Shown: piece after piece, positions 1 through 61,013 of the stretch | How the letters are laid out: each line of letters starts with the position of its first letter | How positions within the stretch are numbered: the stretch's first letter is position 1 | Source of the DNA: Nitrospira sp. | GTDB lineage: Bacteria > Nitrospirota > Nitrospiria > Nitrospirales > Nitrospiraceae | NCBI GenBank assembly: GCA_018242665.1 | Contig: JAFEBL010000007.1 | Coordinates: forward strand, 1-64,000 | Length of the DNA stretch: 64,000 nt | Reading direction: 5' to 3' | The notes under the pieces: model-generated | Told to the model about the DNA's origin: nothing | What the model saw: only the letters and a program-made list of their open reading frames with translations | Databases searched by the model: none | Translations under genes and position numbers: made by a program

Positions 1-270
1 ACCCACGCCTATCGGCCGGCTTAGAATCGCCGCTAGCCCAGTATTGTCTCGCCCCCCGCCGCTGAGCACCGGCGTGGGACCAGTCCGCTGCATCGCGCCA
101 TTCCACCCCCGCGGACCTCAGATGGAACGACGTCTCAGCCTAAATTAGGCTGCGAGTGCCAGTTCTTGGTTGGCAGTTGCGTTTTTCCCGGAATTTTACG
201 AGTTCCCGAGATCTCGACATGCGACGATGGCGTCAATATCCCCGTCGAAACCGGTCGCCCCCTTTCAGTC

Positions 271-53535: not shown

Positions 53536-53877
53536 TCAGGACTTGGCCGTCTTCTTGCCGAAGTAGTCGCGTCGGCTGACGGAGACATCCGACACAAACA
53601 TGACGCCGGAATGGCGGTCAAACAACGGCCGGAGTCCGGCCAGTACCGGCTCGACTTTCTCTTCCGGCACCACGGCCATGATCATGATCAGGCTCTCCTG
53701 CTCACTGAACATGAAATGGGCCTCGCGCACGCCGTGATGGCCCTTCCCCGAAATGTTGCCGATGATGGTGTACCCGGTCGCCTCGACCTTGTCCAGCAAC
53801 TCTGTGACAAACGGCCGGTGCTCCCCGGATACGATGACGCGAATTTCTTTCATGGGATGCAACGTGAGTGCGGCCAT
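53536..53877 (-). CDS. PII-like regulatory protein of the DAB operon
   Basis: A 113-residue protein with a PII/ferredoxin-like fold: KEIRVIVSGEHRPFVTELLDKVEATGYTI, then NISGKGHHGVREAHFMF and IMAVVPEEKVEPVLAGLRPLF. There is no GlnB-type T-loop tyrosine. Small PII-like proteins are often encoded beside inorganic carbon transporters (compare SbtB) and DAB complexes. AAAGGAG precedes the start. It lies 54 bases downstream of dabA, so control of uptake is likely, by inference. Confidence 0.78.
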   Translation of the reverse strand: MAALTLHPMKEIRVIVSGEHRPFVTELLDKVEATGYTIIGNISGKGHHGVREAHFMFSEQESLIMIMAVVPEEKVEPVLAGLRPLFDRHSGVMFVSDVSVSRRDYFGKKTAKS

Positions 53878-53931: not shown

Positions 53932-56900
53932 CTAGCTGTCGCCCGGATGCCTGATCCGGCGCCAGACGCCCGACGGCATGTAGCGGTACCAGACCCCGTC
54001 TTCGGGGTCGAGCGTCGCCAGATGCACCCATTCGTTGTGATAGAAATGCTGCAAAATATCATGCCGGGCAATGAGTTTTTCGATTCGGGCCCGCGAGGCT
54101 TCCACCAGCGTCAGCAAACGCATGGGTTCATGGTACGGCACGTCATCGTTCATGACGGTTTGCCAGGCGAGGCCCAGCCGCAAGTCGCTCCAGGGACCGG
54201 CCATAATGCCGATGCGTCCGACGACGTTGTGATAGATTTTGCTTCCGCTTCCATACACGTCATTGTCGACGGCCGAGAAATAATGCTCCATGTTGATCCA
54301 CTGCGCCACCACCTGCGGGGCAGTCAGGAGCACTTCCAGCCAGCGGTCGGTCGGGTCCTCCCGATGGTCGTAGGAATGGAGGAAGACGCGTCCGCCCAGG
54401 TTCAGCCCCTTCGTCAACTCACGGCGGCCGATGATGAACGTCGTGTTGCCGGAGAGTCCCCATTCGGGCCGCACCTGGCTCCAGTCCGCGCTGCGTCCGG
54501 CCACATGGGCCGAGGCCTCGTCGAGAGCTAGCACCGTCCCGACGTCGGGAAACCGCGTGCAGCGCTCCTGGCTGGTGAGTTGGGCCGCTTCCCGCAAGTC
54601 GTCGTATAGCCGCGCGACGTCTTTCCGATGGGTCGGGGGCGCGTCTTCAAGATCGAAGAGCTGCACCTCATCGGTCGTGGTGTCGACCTGCCCGGCGAGG
54701 AAATGGGTGTCGGGTGGAATCTCGATGCCGCGCTTCGCCAGCCGCTCACGGACCGGCGGCCGGTTGGCCATGGCCGCCAGCGCGCGTGCGTTCGGTTTCC
54801 CTTCGTTGCCGCCGCAGGCGCCGCAGTCCAACGCGGACTCGAAGGGATTGTTTTCCGTCGTACTGCCGTGGGCGCAGAAGAGCACCAGCCGGGCAAAATT
54901 TCGTACCAAGCCCATCATGCGTAGAGCCGTTTCGACTGTCAGCACCTGCTCTTCGAGCGTGAAGCCAGTACGGGTGATGCGTTCCTTCTGGCGGGAAGCG
55001 GCGCGGCGATTGATCCGATAGTGCCGGCGCAAATCGTCGAGAAACGAGTTCAACTGCTCGACCGACAGATCGGCATCCTTGGCGGCGTCAGTCAGGTAGG
55101 GCTCGACGGGCGCATCTTCATCCAAGGCTCGCTGCCGCAACGCCTCCACGAACTCGGCTTCGACCCGGGAGCCATGGAGCCCGAGCCGGTCGCGCAAGGC
55201 TTTCCAGATCAAGGCGCGTTGCTCGGAGACCACCATTTCTTCGGTTTCGGCAGGCGCGAGCTTATCCACCGTCAAGATGGTTGCGATCGGCGGCACGAAC
55301 AATCGCCGCACCCAGGTGGTCAGGCGTTTGTACAGCGCGGGCACCAGTGTCTTCGCCATCATGGGGAGGGCATAAAACCAGCCGAGCGACTCCACCATCA
55401 CGTACGGGGTGACGACATTTTCTTTCAGATCGTGCAACAGCGTGTGTCCGGCGTGGACAAGTTTGGCGCGCGACTGGTGTTTGGAGACGTAATGGTCCAG
55501 GTAGCTCCGTGGAATCTCACGCACCTCGTTCTTGGCGCGCATGATGACCGGGAATTGTTCCGTCTCATGTTCCTTGCCCCAGGCCCGGTAGCGAATAAAG
55601 ACGGCAAAGAATCCGGCGAAGCCGTAGGTCTCATTTGCGCCGGTCGATTCCAGGTGGCGGCGGAACGGCTCCGATCGCACATCGATGCAGAAGACCGATT
55701 GCGAATGCGGCCGGACCGGGGGCCGATGGTCGGGGGCCGCCGGCTGCGGTTTGGTCGGTGCGCGTTGCAGCATGCCGAACAAGTGTTCGTGATACCCGGC
55801 CTCGAAGGCGTTCAGCCACACCGGACCATGTGCGGATTCCGGAAACGCCTCCATCCAGTCCAGGAGCTGTCGTAGCGCCGGCAGCGGGGCGTCCATCAAG
55901 ACCGTCGGCACAATTTCGAGTGCGTGGGCCAGGGTCAGCAGGCGTCTGGCCATGCCCCGCTGCTCGGCCCGTTCCCGGCGTGGGCCATACTCGATTTGGT
56001 CGTGATGGGTCAGTTGTTCCCATTCGCGTGACAGCAGGGCGCTGTTCTGGGAGGAGCCAATTTTGGCGTGGAGACGCGCGACACGGGCCGCATGCGCGGC
56101 GGGCAACCGGCCGGCCACCCATTCTTTGCGCAGGTAGTACGCATGTGGGTGCTGGTCCATGAAGCGCAGAATGGCGCGATAGGTGCCGTCAATGCCGAAG
56201 TCGCGTTGACAGACCTTCTGGACCAGCTCGCGCACATACCAGAGCCGCACGGCCAGGAACTTCACCAAGCCGACCGGAAAGGCTTGCTGCCAGACATAGT
56301 CATTTTCTTCCGCCCGCCATTTGATGAAACCGGCCCAACCGGGTAGCGCCGCGAGTTGGAGCGATAGGTAGTCCTGTCTGAATTCCACCGGGATCTCGAG
56401 CGCCTCCAGGCAGTCGAGCACGACGTCTTCCGGATGTTCAGGGAGTGCGGTAATTTTCCGGCGGCTGTCCTCGATGCCGCAGGTCATCCATTCCTTCCCG
56501 GCGGCTTGTTTCCATGCGGCATAGAAGCCCTGCTGCCGTTCCGGCATGGGCCACGTGGCATGGCCTTCGTCGAGGAACGCTTCACACCATTTGACGAGCT
56601 CACCGTTGATCTGGTCGACGATGGTGGTGCCCGCTGTCCGGTCGCACCAGCTTGTCAGCGTCAGATCCCGCCCAAGGGCCGTCACATCCTCGCGGATGAT
56701 GGTAGCCATACGGTCTTGCACGGTCGGCGTCGAGCACGCGGCGAGGCGCTCAGCCAGTGCATCAATGGGTTCTTCGTCCGGCGTTGGTTCCATGAGCCGG
56801 TCAAGCGGCTCGTCGGCGTGACGGGAGAGGCCGTGGGTCAGGCAGGCTCGCAAGACCTCACGATGCGCGATACGGCAGGACCCCAGGTCGACGGCGTCAG

Positions 56901-57198
56901 GACGGGCGAGCGCTGCCAGGGCTTCGTCGACGTGCCGGACAAGAATTCGGCCCGACTTCAAGTATCGCCGATACATGTCACCAGAGAGGTAGCCGTTTCC
57001 GCCCAAGAACTGCTTCCCGCGGCGGACCGTCTCGGTGAACGGCAGATACTCCAAACTATGCAGCGGATTGTGGTGCACGAACGTCCGCATGGGCCAGTAC
57101 TGCGCGATGACTTCGCTGGCCAGTCGGATCGTCCCCCGCAATTCCATGCGCCGGGCTTCGAGATCAGTATGGTCGGGCGTCTGTCTCACCGGGTCCAT
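53932..57198 (-). CDS. dabA: DabA, DUF2309 subunit of the inorganic-carbon pump
   Basis: A 1,088-residue DUF2309 protein. The beta-carbonic-anhydrase-like zinc site is visible: Cys504 and Asp506 in CIDVRSEPF, His777 in FCAHGSTTEN and Cys792 in ALDCGACGG. The His-to-Cys distance of 15 equals that of the studied Halothiobacillus DabA (C351, D353, H524, C539); the gap between the pairs is about 100 residues longer. It overlaps the NuoM-like gene by 13 bases. I placed the start at 57198 from the SD (GGGGGA) and the start of the family motif TIRLASEVIAQYWPMRTFVH. Confidence 0.93.
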   Translation of the reverse strand: MDPVRQTPDHTDLEARRMELRGTIRLASEVIAQYWPMRTFVHHNPLHSLEYLPFTETVRRGKQFLGGNGYLSGDMYRRYLKSGRILVRHVDEALAALARPDAVDLGSCRIAHREVLRACLTHGLSRHADEPLDRLMEPTPDEEPIDALAERLAACSTPTVQDRMATIIREDVTALGRDLTLTSWCDRTAGTTIVDQINGELVKWCEAFLDEGHATWPMPERQQGFYAAWKQAAGKEWMTCGIEDSRRKITALPEHPEDVVLDCLEALEIPVEFRQDYLSLQLAALPGWAGFIKWRAEENDYVWQQAFPVGLVKFLAVRLWYVRELVQKVCQRDFGIDGTYRAILRFMDQHPHAYYLRKEWVAGRLPAAHAARVARLHAKIGSSQNSALLSREWEQLTHHDQIEYGPRRERAEQRGMARRLLTLAHALEIVPTVLMDAPLPALRQLLDWMEAFPESAHGPVWLNAFEAGYHEHLFGMLQRAPTKPQPAAPDHRPPVRPHSQSVFCIDVRSEPFRRHLESTGANETYGFAGFFAVFIRYRAWGKEHETEQFPVIMRAKNEVREIPRSYLDHYVSKHQSRAKLVHAGHTLLHDLKENVVTPYVMVESLGWFYALPMMAKTLVPALYKRLTTWVRRLFVPPIATILTVDKLAPAETEEMVVSEQRALIWKALRDRLGLHGSRVEAEFVEALRQRALDEDAPVEPYLTDAAKDADLSVEQLNSFLDDLRRHYRINRRAASRQKERITRTGFTLEEQVLTVETALRMMGLVRNFARLVLFCAHGSTTENNPFESALDCGACGGNEGKPNARALAAMANRPPVRERLAKRGIEIPPDTHFLAGQVDTTTDEVQLFDLEDAPPTHRKDVARLYDDLREAAQLTSQERCTRFPDVGTVLALDEASAHVAGRSADWSQVRPEWGLSGNTTFIIGRRELTKGLNLGGRVFLHSYDHREDPTDRWLEVLLTAPQVVAQWINMEHYFSAVDNDVYGSGSKIYHNVVGRIGIMAGPWSDLRLGLAWQTVMNDDVPYHEPMRLLTLVEASRARIEKLIARHDILQHFYHNEWVHLATLDPEDGVWYRYMPSGVWRRIRHPGDS

Positions 57199-58490
57199 GT
57201 GTCCCCCTGTGAGGTAGCCGAGACGGGAGGAATCGGCGCATTCGATTCGAACCACCGCGAGGGCGCCGTCCCGAGCACCAGCAGCAGAAACAGCACCAGC
57301 ACGAGCGACATCCATTCGGTTTCGCGGAGATCCTCGTAACGGACTTCCGCGCGCGCCCGCCCGAACACGAGTTGTTGCACGAGTTCCATCTGGTACCACG
57401 AGGCGGTGAGCCAGACGAGCATGATGATGGCGAAGGGTCCCGATGGTGCAAAGGTCGGCAGCAGCAGCATGCTCAGGAATCCGGAAAACACGCCGAACGG
57501 CGGCATCCCCAGGGCGGCGAGCGCGAGCAACGCCAGGAGTGTGCTGAAGCGGGGCATGGGATAGGCCATGCCGCCGAGCGCGCGAAGATCCACGTCGCCG
57601 TACCGGGCCCTGATCGCGAACCAAGCCAGCAGCAGTCCGCTGGTGGCGAGCCCCACGCCGCTCAGGTAGATCGTGGCCGGAACCGGCGACGTGCCGGTAT
57701 CTGCCAGGTACCACCAGAGGATGCAGAAGAAAGCCAGTGCGGCATAGGCGAGTCGAGGTAGCGGACGAGACTGAATCAACGCTCGCAAGGATCCGTAAAC
57801 GGTACCGGCAAGAGCCAGAATCGCCAGGGTACGGAGGACCGTTCCAGAGAGGCTCGGGAGCAGCAATTGTATGTCGTGAAATCCGACCATGGGTAGCAGC
57901 AAGGCGAGGAATGCGGGAAGATTGCCCGGCAGTCCGCTCAACACAGCCACGAATCCGCTATGGACCGGCAGCAGAGGAAGGAGTGTGGCGCAGGCCACCA
58001 GGGTGGCGATGTTGGACGCCGGCGCCGGAAGGAGCAGGGCCAGCAGAGTCGTGATCATGCCCAAGCCATAGGACGACAGTCCTCGCCAGGTGTCCGCAGC
58101 AGGGTCTGGTTGATGCCGGTACAAGAGCCCGCACAGCAGCGCCAGCAACAGCAGTAGCAGGAATCCATGGGCTGGCCCCTGGCTCGTCAGGGTGCCAAGA
58201 CCCAGGCCCAGCAGGATGAGGGTCATGGGCCAGGCCCGACTTGTGTCCCGGTGCAACGGCTGGCCAAGGAGCGAGAGACAGGCCGTCAAGGGCAGCAGGC
58301 AAAGAAAGAGAATGCCGGCGGAGGGTTCGCCCAGAGTCAGGGCCGAACCGATGATCGAACAGAGGCTGACGACTGTCGTGATCAAGGCGGCCGTTTTCAT
58401 CTGTGGAAGGGAGGCCTTCAACAGCCAGCAGAGGCCCGCACCGAGCATCGGAACGGAGAAAAGCAGCCATGGTGCCATCCAGGCTTGCAT
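57186..58490 (-). CDS. NuoM/antiporter-like membrane subunit in the DAB operon
   Basis: A 434-residue protein with about 12-14 hydrophobic segments. Loops such as GLPGNLPAFLALLLPMVGFHD and the MPPFGVFSGFLSMLLL resemble proton-translocating NADH dehydrogenase subunits (NuoM/MrpD class). GGAGG precedes the ATG at 58490. It lies between dabB and dabA and overlaps dabA. The usual DAB pump has only DabA and DabB, so this is an additional membrane part. Key charged residues are fewer than in true antiporters. Confidence 0.8.
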   Translation of the reverse strand: MQAWMAPWLLFSVPMLGAGLCWLLKASLPQMKTAALITTVVSLCSIIGSALTLGEPSAGILFLCLLPLTACLSLLGQPLHRDTSRAWPMTLILLGLGLGTLTSQGPAHGFLLLLLLALLCGLLYRHQPDPAADTWRGLSSYGLGMITTLLALLLPAPASNIATLVACATLLPLLPVHSGFVAVLSGLPGNLPAFLALLLPMVGFHDIQLLLPSLSGTVLRTLAILALAGTVYGSLRALIQSRPLPRLAYAALAFFCILWWYLADTGTSPVPATIYLSGVGLATSGLLLAWFAIRARYGDVDLRALGGMAYPMPRFSTLLALLALAALGMPPFGVFSGFLSMLLLPTFAPSGPFAIIMLVWLTASWYQMELVQQLVFGRARAEVRYEDLRETEWMSLVLVLFLLLVLGTAPSRWFESNAPIPPVSATSQGDTWTR

Positions 58491-58551
58491 CAGGACCGTC
58501 CTCCTGCCGCTGGCACAATCCCATGGTCGCATCTGCTGCGTGCGAGAATGG

Positions 58552-60246
58552 TCACGACAGGCGTTTCTCCAGGCGATGGGCCACGCGGGTCACGAGACGG
58601 CCGACTGTGAGGTAGAGTTGATCCAGGTAGAGCCGGTTCATGCAGACCACATAGAGGCGACCCAGGAAGACCTCGATCCAGCCGGGAATGGTGATGGTCC
58701 GGCCATGCGCGTGGGCATACAAATACACCCAGCTCAGCCCCGTTAAGAGGGTTGTGCCGACGACCAGGCTATCGAAAAGCCGTCCGGGAAGCGCTGCCGC
58801 CTTGAAGTAGGACGCCACCTCCTCCGGGTTAGGGTAGAGGAAGTGCGTGAAGCTCTCCACGGCGAACAGGTACGTGAAGACCACGATCACCAGGGTGACC
58901 AGCATGGCGGCAGACACTTTCCACGAGGCCACCGCTCGTATGCGCGTGAGCGAGAGGATGGCCTGCGACGACGTGACCCAGATGAAGAACAAGAAAATGA
59001 CGGTACCCTGAGATTCGAGCAACGGCAGTCTCAGTACGCCATGGGTGACCAGCAGAATGACGAGCGGCAGTAACAGCGTGGTGAAGAATCCGGTGGACCA
59101 GGTCAGGTTGGAGAATTCGCTTTCCTCCGCTTCCCGATCGAGGTGGGGAAATGACGGCTCCTGGCGGGCCTTGTGGATGACATTTCCGCAATTCAGGAAC
59201 ACGGTGCCTTTGAAGAGGCCGTGTGCGATCAGGTGGAACACGGCGAGGGAAAAGGCGCCCAAGCCGCATTCCATAATCATGTAGCCCATCTGCCCGATCG
59301 TCGAAAACCCCAACGTCTTCTTGATGTCGTTTTGGGTCAGCATCATGGTGGCGCCGAGTATGGCGGTGAGCATGCCGATGATGAAGACCACATGCAGCGT
59401 TGTCGGGCTCTGTCCGTACAGTGGGGCAAGCCGGTTCAGCAGGAACCCTCCGGCGTTGATGATGCCTGCATGCAGCAGGGCGTGGATCGGCGTCGGCGCA
59501 TAGAGCGAGCGGGGCAACCAGGTATGAATGGGGAACTGAGCCGACTTGCCCATCGCCCCGCCGAAAATGAGCAGCGTCACGGCCGTCACGCCGTTCATCT
59601 CCCAGCCGAGTTCCGGCCAAATGAATAGGGTAAAGGGCGTCTCTGCCGCGCGCGTGAACAGCGTCTGAAACTCGAACGTGCCATAGAGCGAATAGGCCAG
59701 GACGATACCCGCGAGAAATGCGGCATCACTCAGCCGCAACATGGTGAAGGTATTGGCGGCGCCGGAGAGCGTGGCGGCATGACCGTGATTGTGCGCGAGC
59801 AGAAACAGCAGCCAGGAGAGAATTTGCCAGAAGATGAACAGCATCACCAGATTGGCGCTCGAGACCATGCAGAGCAGCACGGAGGTCGTGAGGCCTAGCA
59901 GGCCCAAATATCGCCGGTACCCGCGATCTTGATACATGTAGCCCATAGAATAGCGGTAGATCAGCGTGGTCACGCCGGTGATCAGCACCATCATGACGGC
60001 GCTGAGCCGGTCGATGTAGAAGCCGATCGGGAAGGCGAGATTGGCGACCGCGGACGGATCATACAACTGGATCGTGACCGGCCCTCCGGAGGTCACCACA
60101 ATCAAGGTGAGCAGAGATCCCAGGAAAGAGGCGGCGATCGGCAAAAGTCCGGCCCGCGCATTCTGGTCCTGTTCAGCGTGATCACCGGTCATCACAATGA
60201 ACGCCGTCAAGAGCGGCAATAGCGGGACGAGGACGAGGAAAGCCAT
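58552..60246 (-). CDS. dabB: DabB, NuoL-like proton channel subunit
   Basis: A 564-residue NuoL/NDH-5 homologue with about 14-16 membrane segments. The conserved parts are YSMGYMYQDRGYRRYLGLL, FWQILSWLLFLL, AMGKSAQFPIHTWLPRSLYAPTPIHALLHAGIINAGGFLL and KKTLGFSTIGQMGYMI. In DAB complexes the subunit couples cation flow to CO2 hydration by DabA. It is the first gene of the operon; the AAAGG ribosome-binding site is close to a leader terminator. Confidence 0.92.
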   Translation of the reverse strand: MAFLVLVPLLPLLTAFIVMTGDHAEQDQNARAGLLPIAASFLGSLLTLIVVTSGGPVTIQLYDPSAVANLAFPIGFYIDRLSAVMMVLITGVTTLIYRYSMGYMYQDRGYRRYLGLLGLTTSVLLCMVSSANLVMLFIFWQILSWLLFLLAHNHGHAATLSGAANTFTMLRLSDAAFLAGIVLAYSLYGTFEFQTLFTRAAETPFTLFIWPELGWEMNGVTAVTLLIFGGAMGKSAQFPIHTWLPRSLYAPTPIHALLHAGIINAGGFLLNRLAPLYGQSPTTLHVVFIIGMLTAILGATMMLTQNDIKKTLGFSTIGQMGYMIMECGLGAFSLAVFHLIAHGLFKGTVFLNCGNVIHKARQEPSFPHLDREAEESEFSNLTWSTGFFTTLLLPLVILLVTHGVLRLPLLESQGTVIFLFFIWVTSSQAILSLTRIRAVASWKVSAAMLVTLVIVVFTYLFAVESFTHFLYPNPEEVASYFKAAALPGRLFDSLVVGTTLLTGLSWVYLYAHAHGRTITIPGWIEVFLGRLYVVCMNRLYLDQLYLTVGRLVTRVAHRLEKRLS

Positions 60247-60270
60247 GCAGGACCTTTGCGTTCCATGTAA

Positions 60271-60320
60271 AGAAAAAGGCCAGCCGACGGTCCTTGCAAG
60301 AAGGTCCGAACGACTGGCCT
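60271..60320 (-). terminator. Intrinsic terminator in the dabB leader (attenuator)
   Basis: On the minus strand, AGGCCAG...CTGGCCT (60320-60314 with 60283-60277) closes a stem extended by inner pairs (CGG/CCG and CCTT/AAGG), with a 5-base loop and the trailing run TTTTTCTTT. It starts about 25 bases upstream of the dabB ATG and no minus-strand gene lies upstream, so it cannot serve another gene. Minus-strand RNA 60259-60247 (AGGTCCTGC) could also pair with GCAAGGACC in the stem and cover the AAAGG ribosome-binding site. A further hairpin lies at 60329-60357. Confidence 0.65.
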
Positions 60321-60574
60321 GCACTGTCCCCGGCTTTTTCCTCTGAGGAAACACCGGCAAGACCCTACTGGCTGTCTCATCTCATCACGTGGGTGGGTCC
60401 GGGCCGCGCCCGCATCACGGCCTGTCGTCGGCACCACCGCAAAACTCCGGTAGATGTAGCCGCGTACCCCTTGGAATTGCAAGTAAAAAGTCGGCGGCCG
60501 AGCAAGCTCCGTCAGCCATCCGCCTGTCACGATCGGCCGGCGGCGGTCTGACTCAGCGCAGGGGGAGAGGGGGG

Positions 60575-60604: not shown

Positions 60605-60644
60605 CCGTTCGGCCGTTGTGCACGATCACCTCAAAGGGATGAGC

Positions 60645-61013
60645 ATGCCTGTGCCCAGCAAGGGAGAAAAGGAAGCCGCCGTCCGCACGGCGATCATTAA
60701 ATTTGAACAGGAATTTCTTGGCCGCGGTCCGGACGAAGTCCGGGTCTTCATCGTGCGGGATATGCTGGTCGTGCGCTTAAAGGGGGTGCTGACACCGGCC
60801 GAGCGGCAATTGGCCAAAACGGCGGAAGGCATCGATATGGTGAAACGATTGCGTCAGAACCTGATCGCGCAAGGGCGGGAACGGCTCTGCGAGCAGGTGG
60901 CGGACTTGATCGGCGCCAAGATCATCGCACTGTTCACCGACATCGACACCGTGGTCGGCGAGCGCATTTTTGTGTTCACATTGGAGTCCGATCTGGAAGC
61001 CAACTTCCGGTAA
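60645..61013 (+). CDS. YbcI-like DUF2294 protein
   Basis: A 122-residue protein matching DUF2294: VRTAIIKFEQEFLGRGPDEVRVFI, VRLKGVLTPAERQLAKT, GAKIIALFTDIDTVVGERIFVFTLE. In Bacillus subtilis the DUF2294 gene ybcI lies in the operon with ybcC (DabA) and ndhF (DabB), so its place divergent from the DAB operon here supports a link to inorganic carbon uptake. Its biochemical role is unknown. AAAGGG lies six bases before the ATG. Confidence 0.85.
   Translation: MPVPSKGEKEAAVRTAIIKFEQEFLGRGPDEVRVFIVRDMLVVRLKGVLTPAERQLAKTAEGIDMVKRLRQNLIAQGRERLCEQVADLIGAKIIALFTDIDTVVGERIFVFTLESDLEANFR

Follow-up and report, generated by a model that had tools for sequence, protein, structure and literature searches.

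A candidate riboswitch-like transcription attenuator in the leaders of inorganic-carbon uptake genes of Nitrospirales

Introduction

The dab operon on a Nitrospira sp. contig (JAFEBL010000007.1) is preceded by a structured leader, which raises the question of whether an RNA element controls uptake of inorganic carbon in this organism. In cyanobacteria, the DNA-binding proteins CcmR and CmpR take part in low-CO2 regulation of carbon-concentrating genes. To our knowledge, the switching of inorganic-carbon uptake in chemolithoautotrophs beyond cyanobacteria and proteobacteria is largely unknown, and we know of no RNA class for inorganic-carbon uptake. An initial annotation of the window (the first 64,000 nucleotides of the contig) had proposed a transcription attenuator in front of dabB. 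Here, we compare this leader with those of related genomes and ask what kind of element it is.

The dab leader of the window contains an intrinsic terminator

Features of the locus are collected in Table 1. The dabB start codon is backed by alignment of congeneric sequences, while the listed start of the dabA open reading frame is probably too far upstream. The mpsC gene is found near or divergent to the leader and the dab genes in many genomes, a location expected of a DAB/Mps partner. At its left edge (1-262, minus strand), the window also holds a tmRNA (RF00023) that is cut by the window boundary.

Table 1. Coordinates of genes and leader elements of the dab locus in the window
Feature	Coordinates	Strand	Basis and remarks
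mpsC	60618-61013	+	PF10057; divergent from dab leader
−35-like TTGCAA (putative)	60477-60482	−	Conserved block in genus alignment
−10-like TACATC (putative)	60453-60458	−	18 nt spacing from TTGCAA; genus alignment
5′ domain I, GGTGGTGCC ... GGACCCACC hairpin	60392-60438	−	Structured but variable
P1 5′ strand	60370-60372	−	GCC, with one mismatch; relatives have GGC
GUAGGG, core 5′ half	60363-60368	−	Near-invariant; GUA pairs with UGC/UAC, GG faces AG
P2 hairpin	60326-60363	−	Fold and covariation; includes the TTTCCTC/GAGGAAA hairpin
AGUGC-AG-GCC, core 3′ half	60316-60325	−	Conserved; GCC (60316-60318) common to P1 and terminator
Intrinsic terminator stem-loop	60278-60320	−	Fold energy; 98.8% of cells paired across 51 sequences
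T-run TTTTTCTTT	60269-60277	−	T-rich in every aligned relative
dabB	58552-60246	−	Proton_antipo_M/N match; ATG at 60246
Second membrane protein of operon	57186-58532	−	No Pfam match; syntenic in relatives
dabA	53932-57714	−	PF10070, matched residues 197-1230
PII-like protein	53536-53877	−	PF00543

The stem and T-run that had been noticed before dabB are indeed present. The hairpin AGGCCAGTCG..CGGCTGGCC folds at −26.9 kcal/mol (z −3.9), none of 200 shuffled sequences being as stable, and the T-run follows it directly, so that both elements of an intrinsic terminator, a stable stem and a T-run behind it, are found in the leader. The distance to the ATG is 22 nt, rather than the 25 nt first given. 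A simple terminator scan of the window did not list this hairpin, since its length and bulges exceed what the scan accepts. As previously described, the neighbouring gene, mpsC, is divergent; given a transcription start upstream, this places the terminator inside the dab leader.

Such a start is predicted near 60446, ca. 200 nt before dabB, from the promoter-like elements listed in Table 1. Over all copies of the motif described below, promoter-like matches (at least 9 of 12 positions) numbered 28, compared with 12.4 in simple shuffles, no more than an approximately twofold excess. The boundaries first drawn cover only a part of the leader and should reach to about 60460. A hairpin with TTTCCTC/GAGGAAA arms within CCGG ends, also noticed earlier, exists (z −2.2) and forms the top of a conserved core hairpin. 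A 136-nt fold has z −3.7.

A compact core in the leader is conserved and covaries

Of 29 genomes of the genus, 27 have a close dabB, and in these the leader is present and little altered; the remaining two have neither the motif nor a close dabB. The stem and T-run are kept in nearly all relatives with the same dabB, as would be expected of the attenuator that the initial annotation had predicted. At distant dabB loci, the sequence is divergent, but GGC-n-GUAGGG-(P2 hairpin)-CAGURC-AA-GCC, the terminator and the T-run remain. The common element is a core of ca. 55 nt, GGC-n-GUA-GG-(hairpin)-AG-UAC-AA-GCC, the last GCC of which doubles as the terminator 5′ arm. The GG/AG internal loop hardly varies (AG/AA or CG/AA in one sub-group), and P2 loops differ in length and sequence among the aligned copies.

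Covariation among relatives, which had been suggested as a check on the leader, was strong in core and terminator taken together and in the core by itself. Since the aligned sequences are related, shuffles overstate the significance of the counts obtained (69 two-sided-change cells versus 16.5 in shuffles, 0 of 500, for core and terminator in 51 copies; 74 versus 22.8 in a diverse alignment limited to the core), and the argument is therefore carried by the slid controls, in which pairing in the 51-copy alignment was abolished once partners were displaced, and by double changes at 9 of 15 core pairs. The dabB leader thus contains what is looked for in a riboswitch, a conserved and covarying structured core in a 5′ leader.

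Upstream of the core, the region of domain I (the 78 nt preceding the motif) is more structured than control stretches (mean z −1.28 versus 0.03). In some copies, that at L148 among them, a TGGTATAA box lies so near the core that domain I appears to be missing, and this suggests that sensing is done by the core.

P1 and the terminator compete for the same strand

The GCC that follows the AA bulge can be used twice: with the upstream GGC, forming P1, and with the GGC at the end of the terminator. P1 is possible in 128 of 137 distinct copies, compared with 3-13 of 137 at control offsets of 4-23; the upstream GGC lies outside the terminator, yet it is partnered at the right place in all of these 128. 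In one locus (L153), the three strands have changed together, to GGU, ACC and GGU. When folded apart, core and terminator have similar energies (means of −23.5 and −26.9 kcal/mol, respectively). An expression platform mutually exclusive with the core is therefore found, as in riboswitches, with a mismatch in the window copy, which is one of the nine exceptions: it has C at position 60371 of the P1 strand, against G in congeners.

This C both weakens P1 and contributes to a different pairing, which would cover the dabB ribosome-binding site and had been pointed out earlier (GGACCTT/AGGTCCTGC). The pairing is present in the window, where the 5′ core strand pairs with the Shine–Dalgarno sequence and ATG at −23.0 kcal/mol, versus −12.9 ± 2.8 in shuffles, and, like the low z of the 136-nt fold, it would agree with translational control, in which the leader hides the ribosome-binding site. 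Its conservation did not hold up: most of 23 congeneric sequences pair no better than shuffles, and the stretch from the T-run to the ATG diverges in both length and content. Sequestration of the ribosome-binding site was accordingly rejected as specific to the window, and we consider translational control very improbable as the general role of the leader. The conserved alternative pairing, as judged from the alignments, is that of the GGC upstream of GUAGGG with the GCC of the terminator 5′ arm.

The motif is spread over Nitrospirales

R1, a model whose training set consisted solely of dabB-locus leaders, matched 139 of 175 genomes of the family and 184 of 236 genomes of Nitrospirales (30 of 37 genera), usually with one copy per genome. 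A core-only model (R2) gave the same picture of distribution. It had one significant match in the genome of the window, and a repeat element was rejected on this ground. In a phylum sample outside Nitrospirales, R1 produced only a few weak matches, all in one family, which were rejected on inspection: L165 and L185 have no GUAGGG and match via the terminator alone, and L184 lacks the terminator. Also set aside were weak matches at L151 and L183, which are not before carbon genes, and an R2 match in G229 (E 0.0036) with neither terminator nor carbon gene. The terminators at L165 (1900-1993) and L185 (1740-1825) are similar to those of the motif (TATAAGCCAGTC..GGCTGGCTTTTTT), and the start of the gene that follows them resembles isocitrate dehydrogenase.

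Inorganic-carbon genes follow nearly all copies

The genes downstream of 107 copies were classified. As can be seen, dabB (58 copies) was the most frequent, followed by MrpE of DabA-Mrp clusters (23), SulP (12) and dabA (10), with four copies unassigned. One of these four (L215) precedes an LCIB-type carbonic anhydrase (LCIB_C_CA, PF18599); of the other three, one is at a contig end and two are weak matches. Genes of inorganic carbon (DAB, DabA-Mrp, SulP, LCIB) thus follow 104 of 107 copies, a consistent functional class of the kind associated with a riboswitch, and the link to CO2/bicarbonate uptake turned out stronger than the initial annotation had claimed. Since training was restricted to dabB leaders, the occurrences before SulP, Mrp and LCIB genes came up independently.

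Full DabA is present in the DabA-Mrp clusters. The best PDB match of the SulP proteins is 6ki1, which we take to be the BicA membrane domain, and the permeases are described as BicA-like. One genome (G275) has three copies in a 6.5-kb stretch, which precede SulP, DabA and Mrp genes, and the fragment with the SulP copy at L143 also carries a beta-carbonic anhydrase gene. BicA-like SulP transporters have been reported for Nitrospira marina (PMC8115632) and Mnh/Mrp clusters for lineage IV Nitrospirales (PMC12342949), in passages that are silent on a leader RNA.

The strength of the terminator in every aligned copy would also agree with a constitutive terminator, whose effect is limited to reduced expression or to the release of a small RNA, with no sensing. 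We regard this as quite unlikely, because near-invariant bases and conserved P1 outside the terminator call for another reason, and the same core stands before at least four types of carbon genes.

In one copy counted with dabB (L169:1517), dabB is 3.3 kb downstream: the order at L169:1517-4101 (G154:C553) is motif, a 797-aa protein without a Pfam match or known family, mpsC, and a second motif copy with dabB. The gene of the 797-aa protein is possibly a new inorganic-carbon gene. In the second family of the order, the DabA frames after the motif at L158 (1474-2823) and L160 (6580-8121) match only the first ca. 275 of 747 profile positions, and these DabA are truncated, frameshifted or split.

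The leader RNA has no match in Rfam

A search of the window against Rfam 15 at E ≤ 10 returned only two sub-threshold, chance-level matches, and at E ≤ 1 no match was found in any leader of 14 other loci (9 + 5). Known Rfam RNA classes were rejected on this basis, in keeping with the novelty expected in the initial annotation. No riboswitch was described for these carbon genes in the literature searched, whose scope excludes most subscription papers and bioRxiv preprints. The element appears to form an RNA class of its own within a known type, as an attenuator or orphan riboswitch candidate.

Small ON riboswitches in which the P1 3′ strand is the terminator 5′ arm include the fluoride crcB, pbuE adenine and guanidine-I classes. 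The dab-leader RNA resembles them in its leader position, compact conserved core and mutual exclusion of P1 and terminator, but it matches no Rfam model and is tied to inorganic-carbon genes. Compared with CcmR and CmpR, the targets (bicarbonate transporters and CO2-uptake complexes) are similar, whereas the candidate regulator in Nitrospirales is a leader RNA and not a DNA-binding protein.

A predicted ON switch and its possible signals

The conserved architecture would also suit protein-controlled antitermination, in which an RNA-binding protein of the LicT/SacY or ANTAR manner binds the core and blocks the terminator. The core resembles RAT/LicT sites in that a small, internally looped hairpin overlaps the terminator 5′ arm, and ANTAR proteins, which act in leader antitermination, are found in 50 of 60 genomes of the family. 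However, the bases differ from those of RAT hairpins, and CAT_RBD, the domain of the LicT family, was found in none of the 60 genomes, with the control being positive. No ANTAR was found in six near-complete genomes that have the motif (G055, G066, G068, G127, G129 and G130), and G014 has ANTAR without the motif. Furthermore, the conserved positions are those of the internal loop and helix, with none in the hairpin loops, unlike the paired hexaloop hairpins of ANTAR-target RNAs with their conserved A1 and G4. BglG/LicT and ANTAR proteins were accordingly rejected as obligate partners, and control by a protein is, in our view, unlikely. Since these two antiterminator families fail, the best reading is that the leader is a cis-acting, riboswitch-like transcription attenuator in front of the dab operon, which we consider probable.

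In this model, transcription would start at the promoter ca. 200 nt before dabB, and the core hairpin, consisting of P1 (GGC/GCC), a 3-bp GUA/UAC helix with the GG/AG internal loop and AA bulge, and P2, would fold first. As long as P1 is held, GCC would be kept from the terminator and RNA polymerase would read into the dab operon; when P1 opens, the AAGCC..GGCUU terminator would form, and transcription would stop before dabB. It is probably the core that directly recognises a signal of inorganic-carbon status. From the way P1 and terminator overlap, the signal would be expected to stabilise P1, making the element an ON switch; as in ON riboswitches, a P1-stabilising signal that permits read-through is the parsimonious model, and we infer the polarity from it.

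Since uptake genes are expected to be on at low carbon, the RNA may respond to some metabolite whose level goes up as carbon runs short, or to an ion or pH state, and not to bicarbonate itself; bicarbonate becomes a possible ligand in the opposite case, where binding promotes the opening of P1. We are doubtful of the more specific proposal of direct sensing of bicarbonate/CO2, or of something that closely tracks inorganic-carbon starvation, by an RNA that thereby switches DAB, DabA-Mrp, BicA-like and LCIB genes through attenuation. Against the attenuator model in general, MpsC, DAB, SulP and Mrp are also ion-linked, so that the true signal could be Na+ or pH; a protein or other regulator could act on the core; and P1 is mismatched in the window copy and in eight others.

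An order-wide compact RNA before four carbon systems is a concrete aptamer candidate for HCO3−/CO2, Na+, pH or metabolites of the rTCA cycle. The leader may also help to locate carbon-concentrating genes, known and unknown, in nitrite-oxidising and comammox bacteria. As in the window, a PF00543 PII-like gene is located 3′ of dabA in many relatives, and its product is a possible carbon sensor at the protein level.
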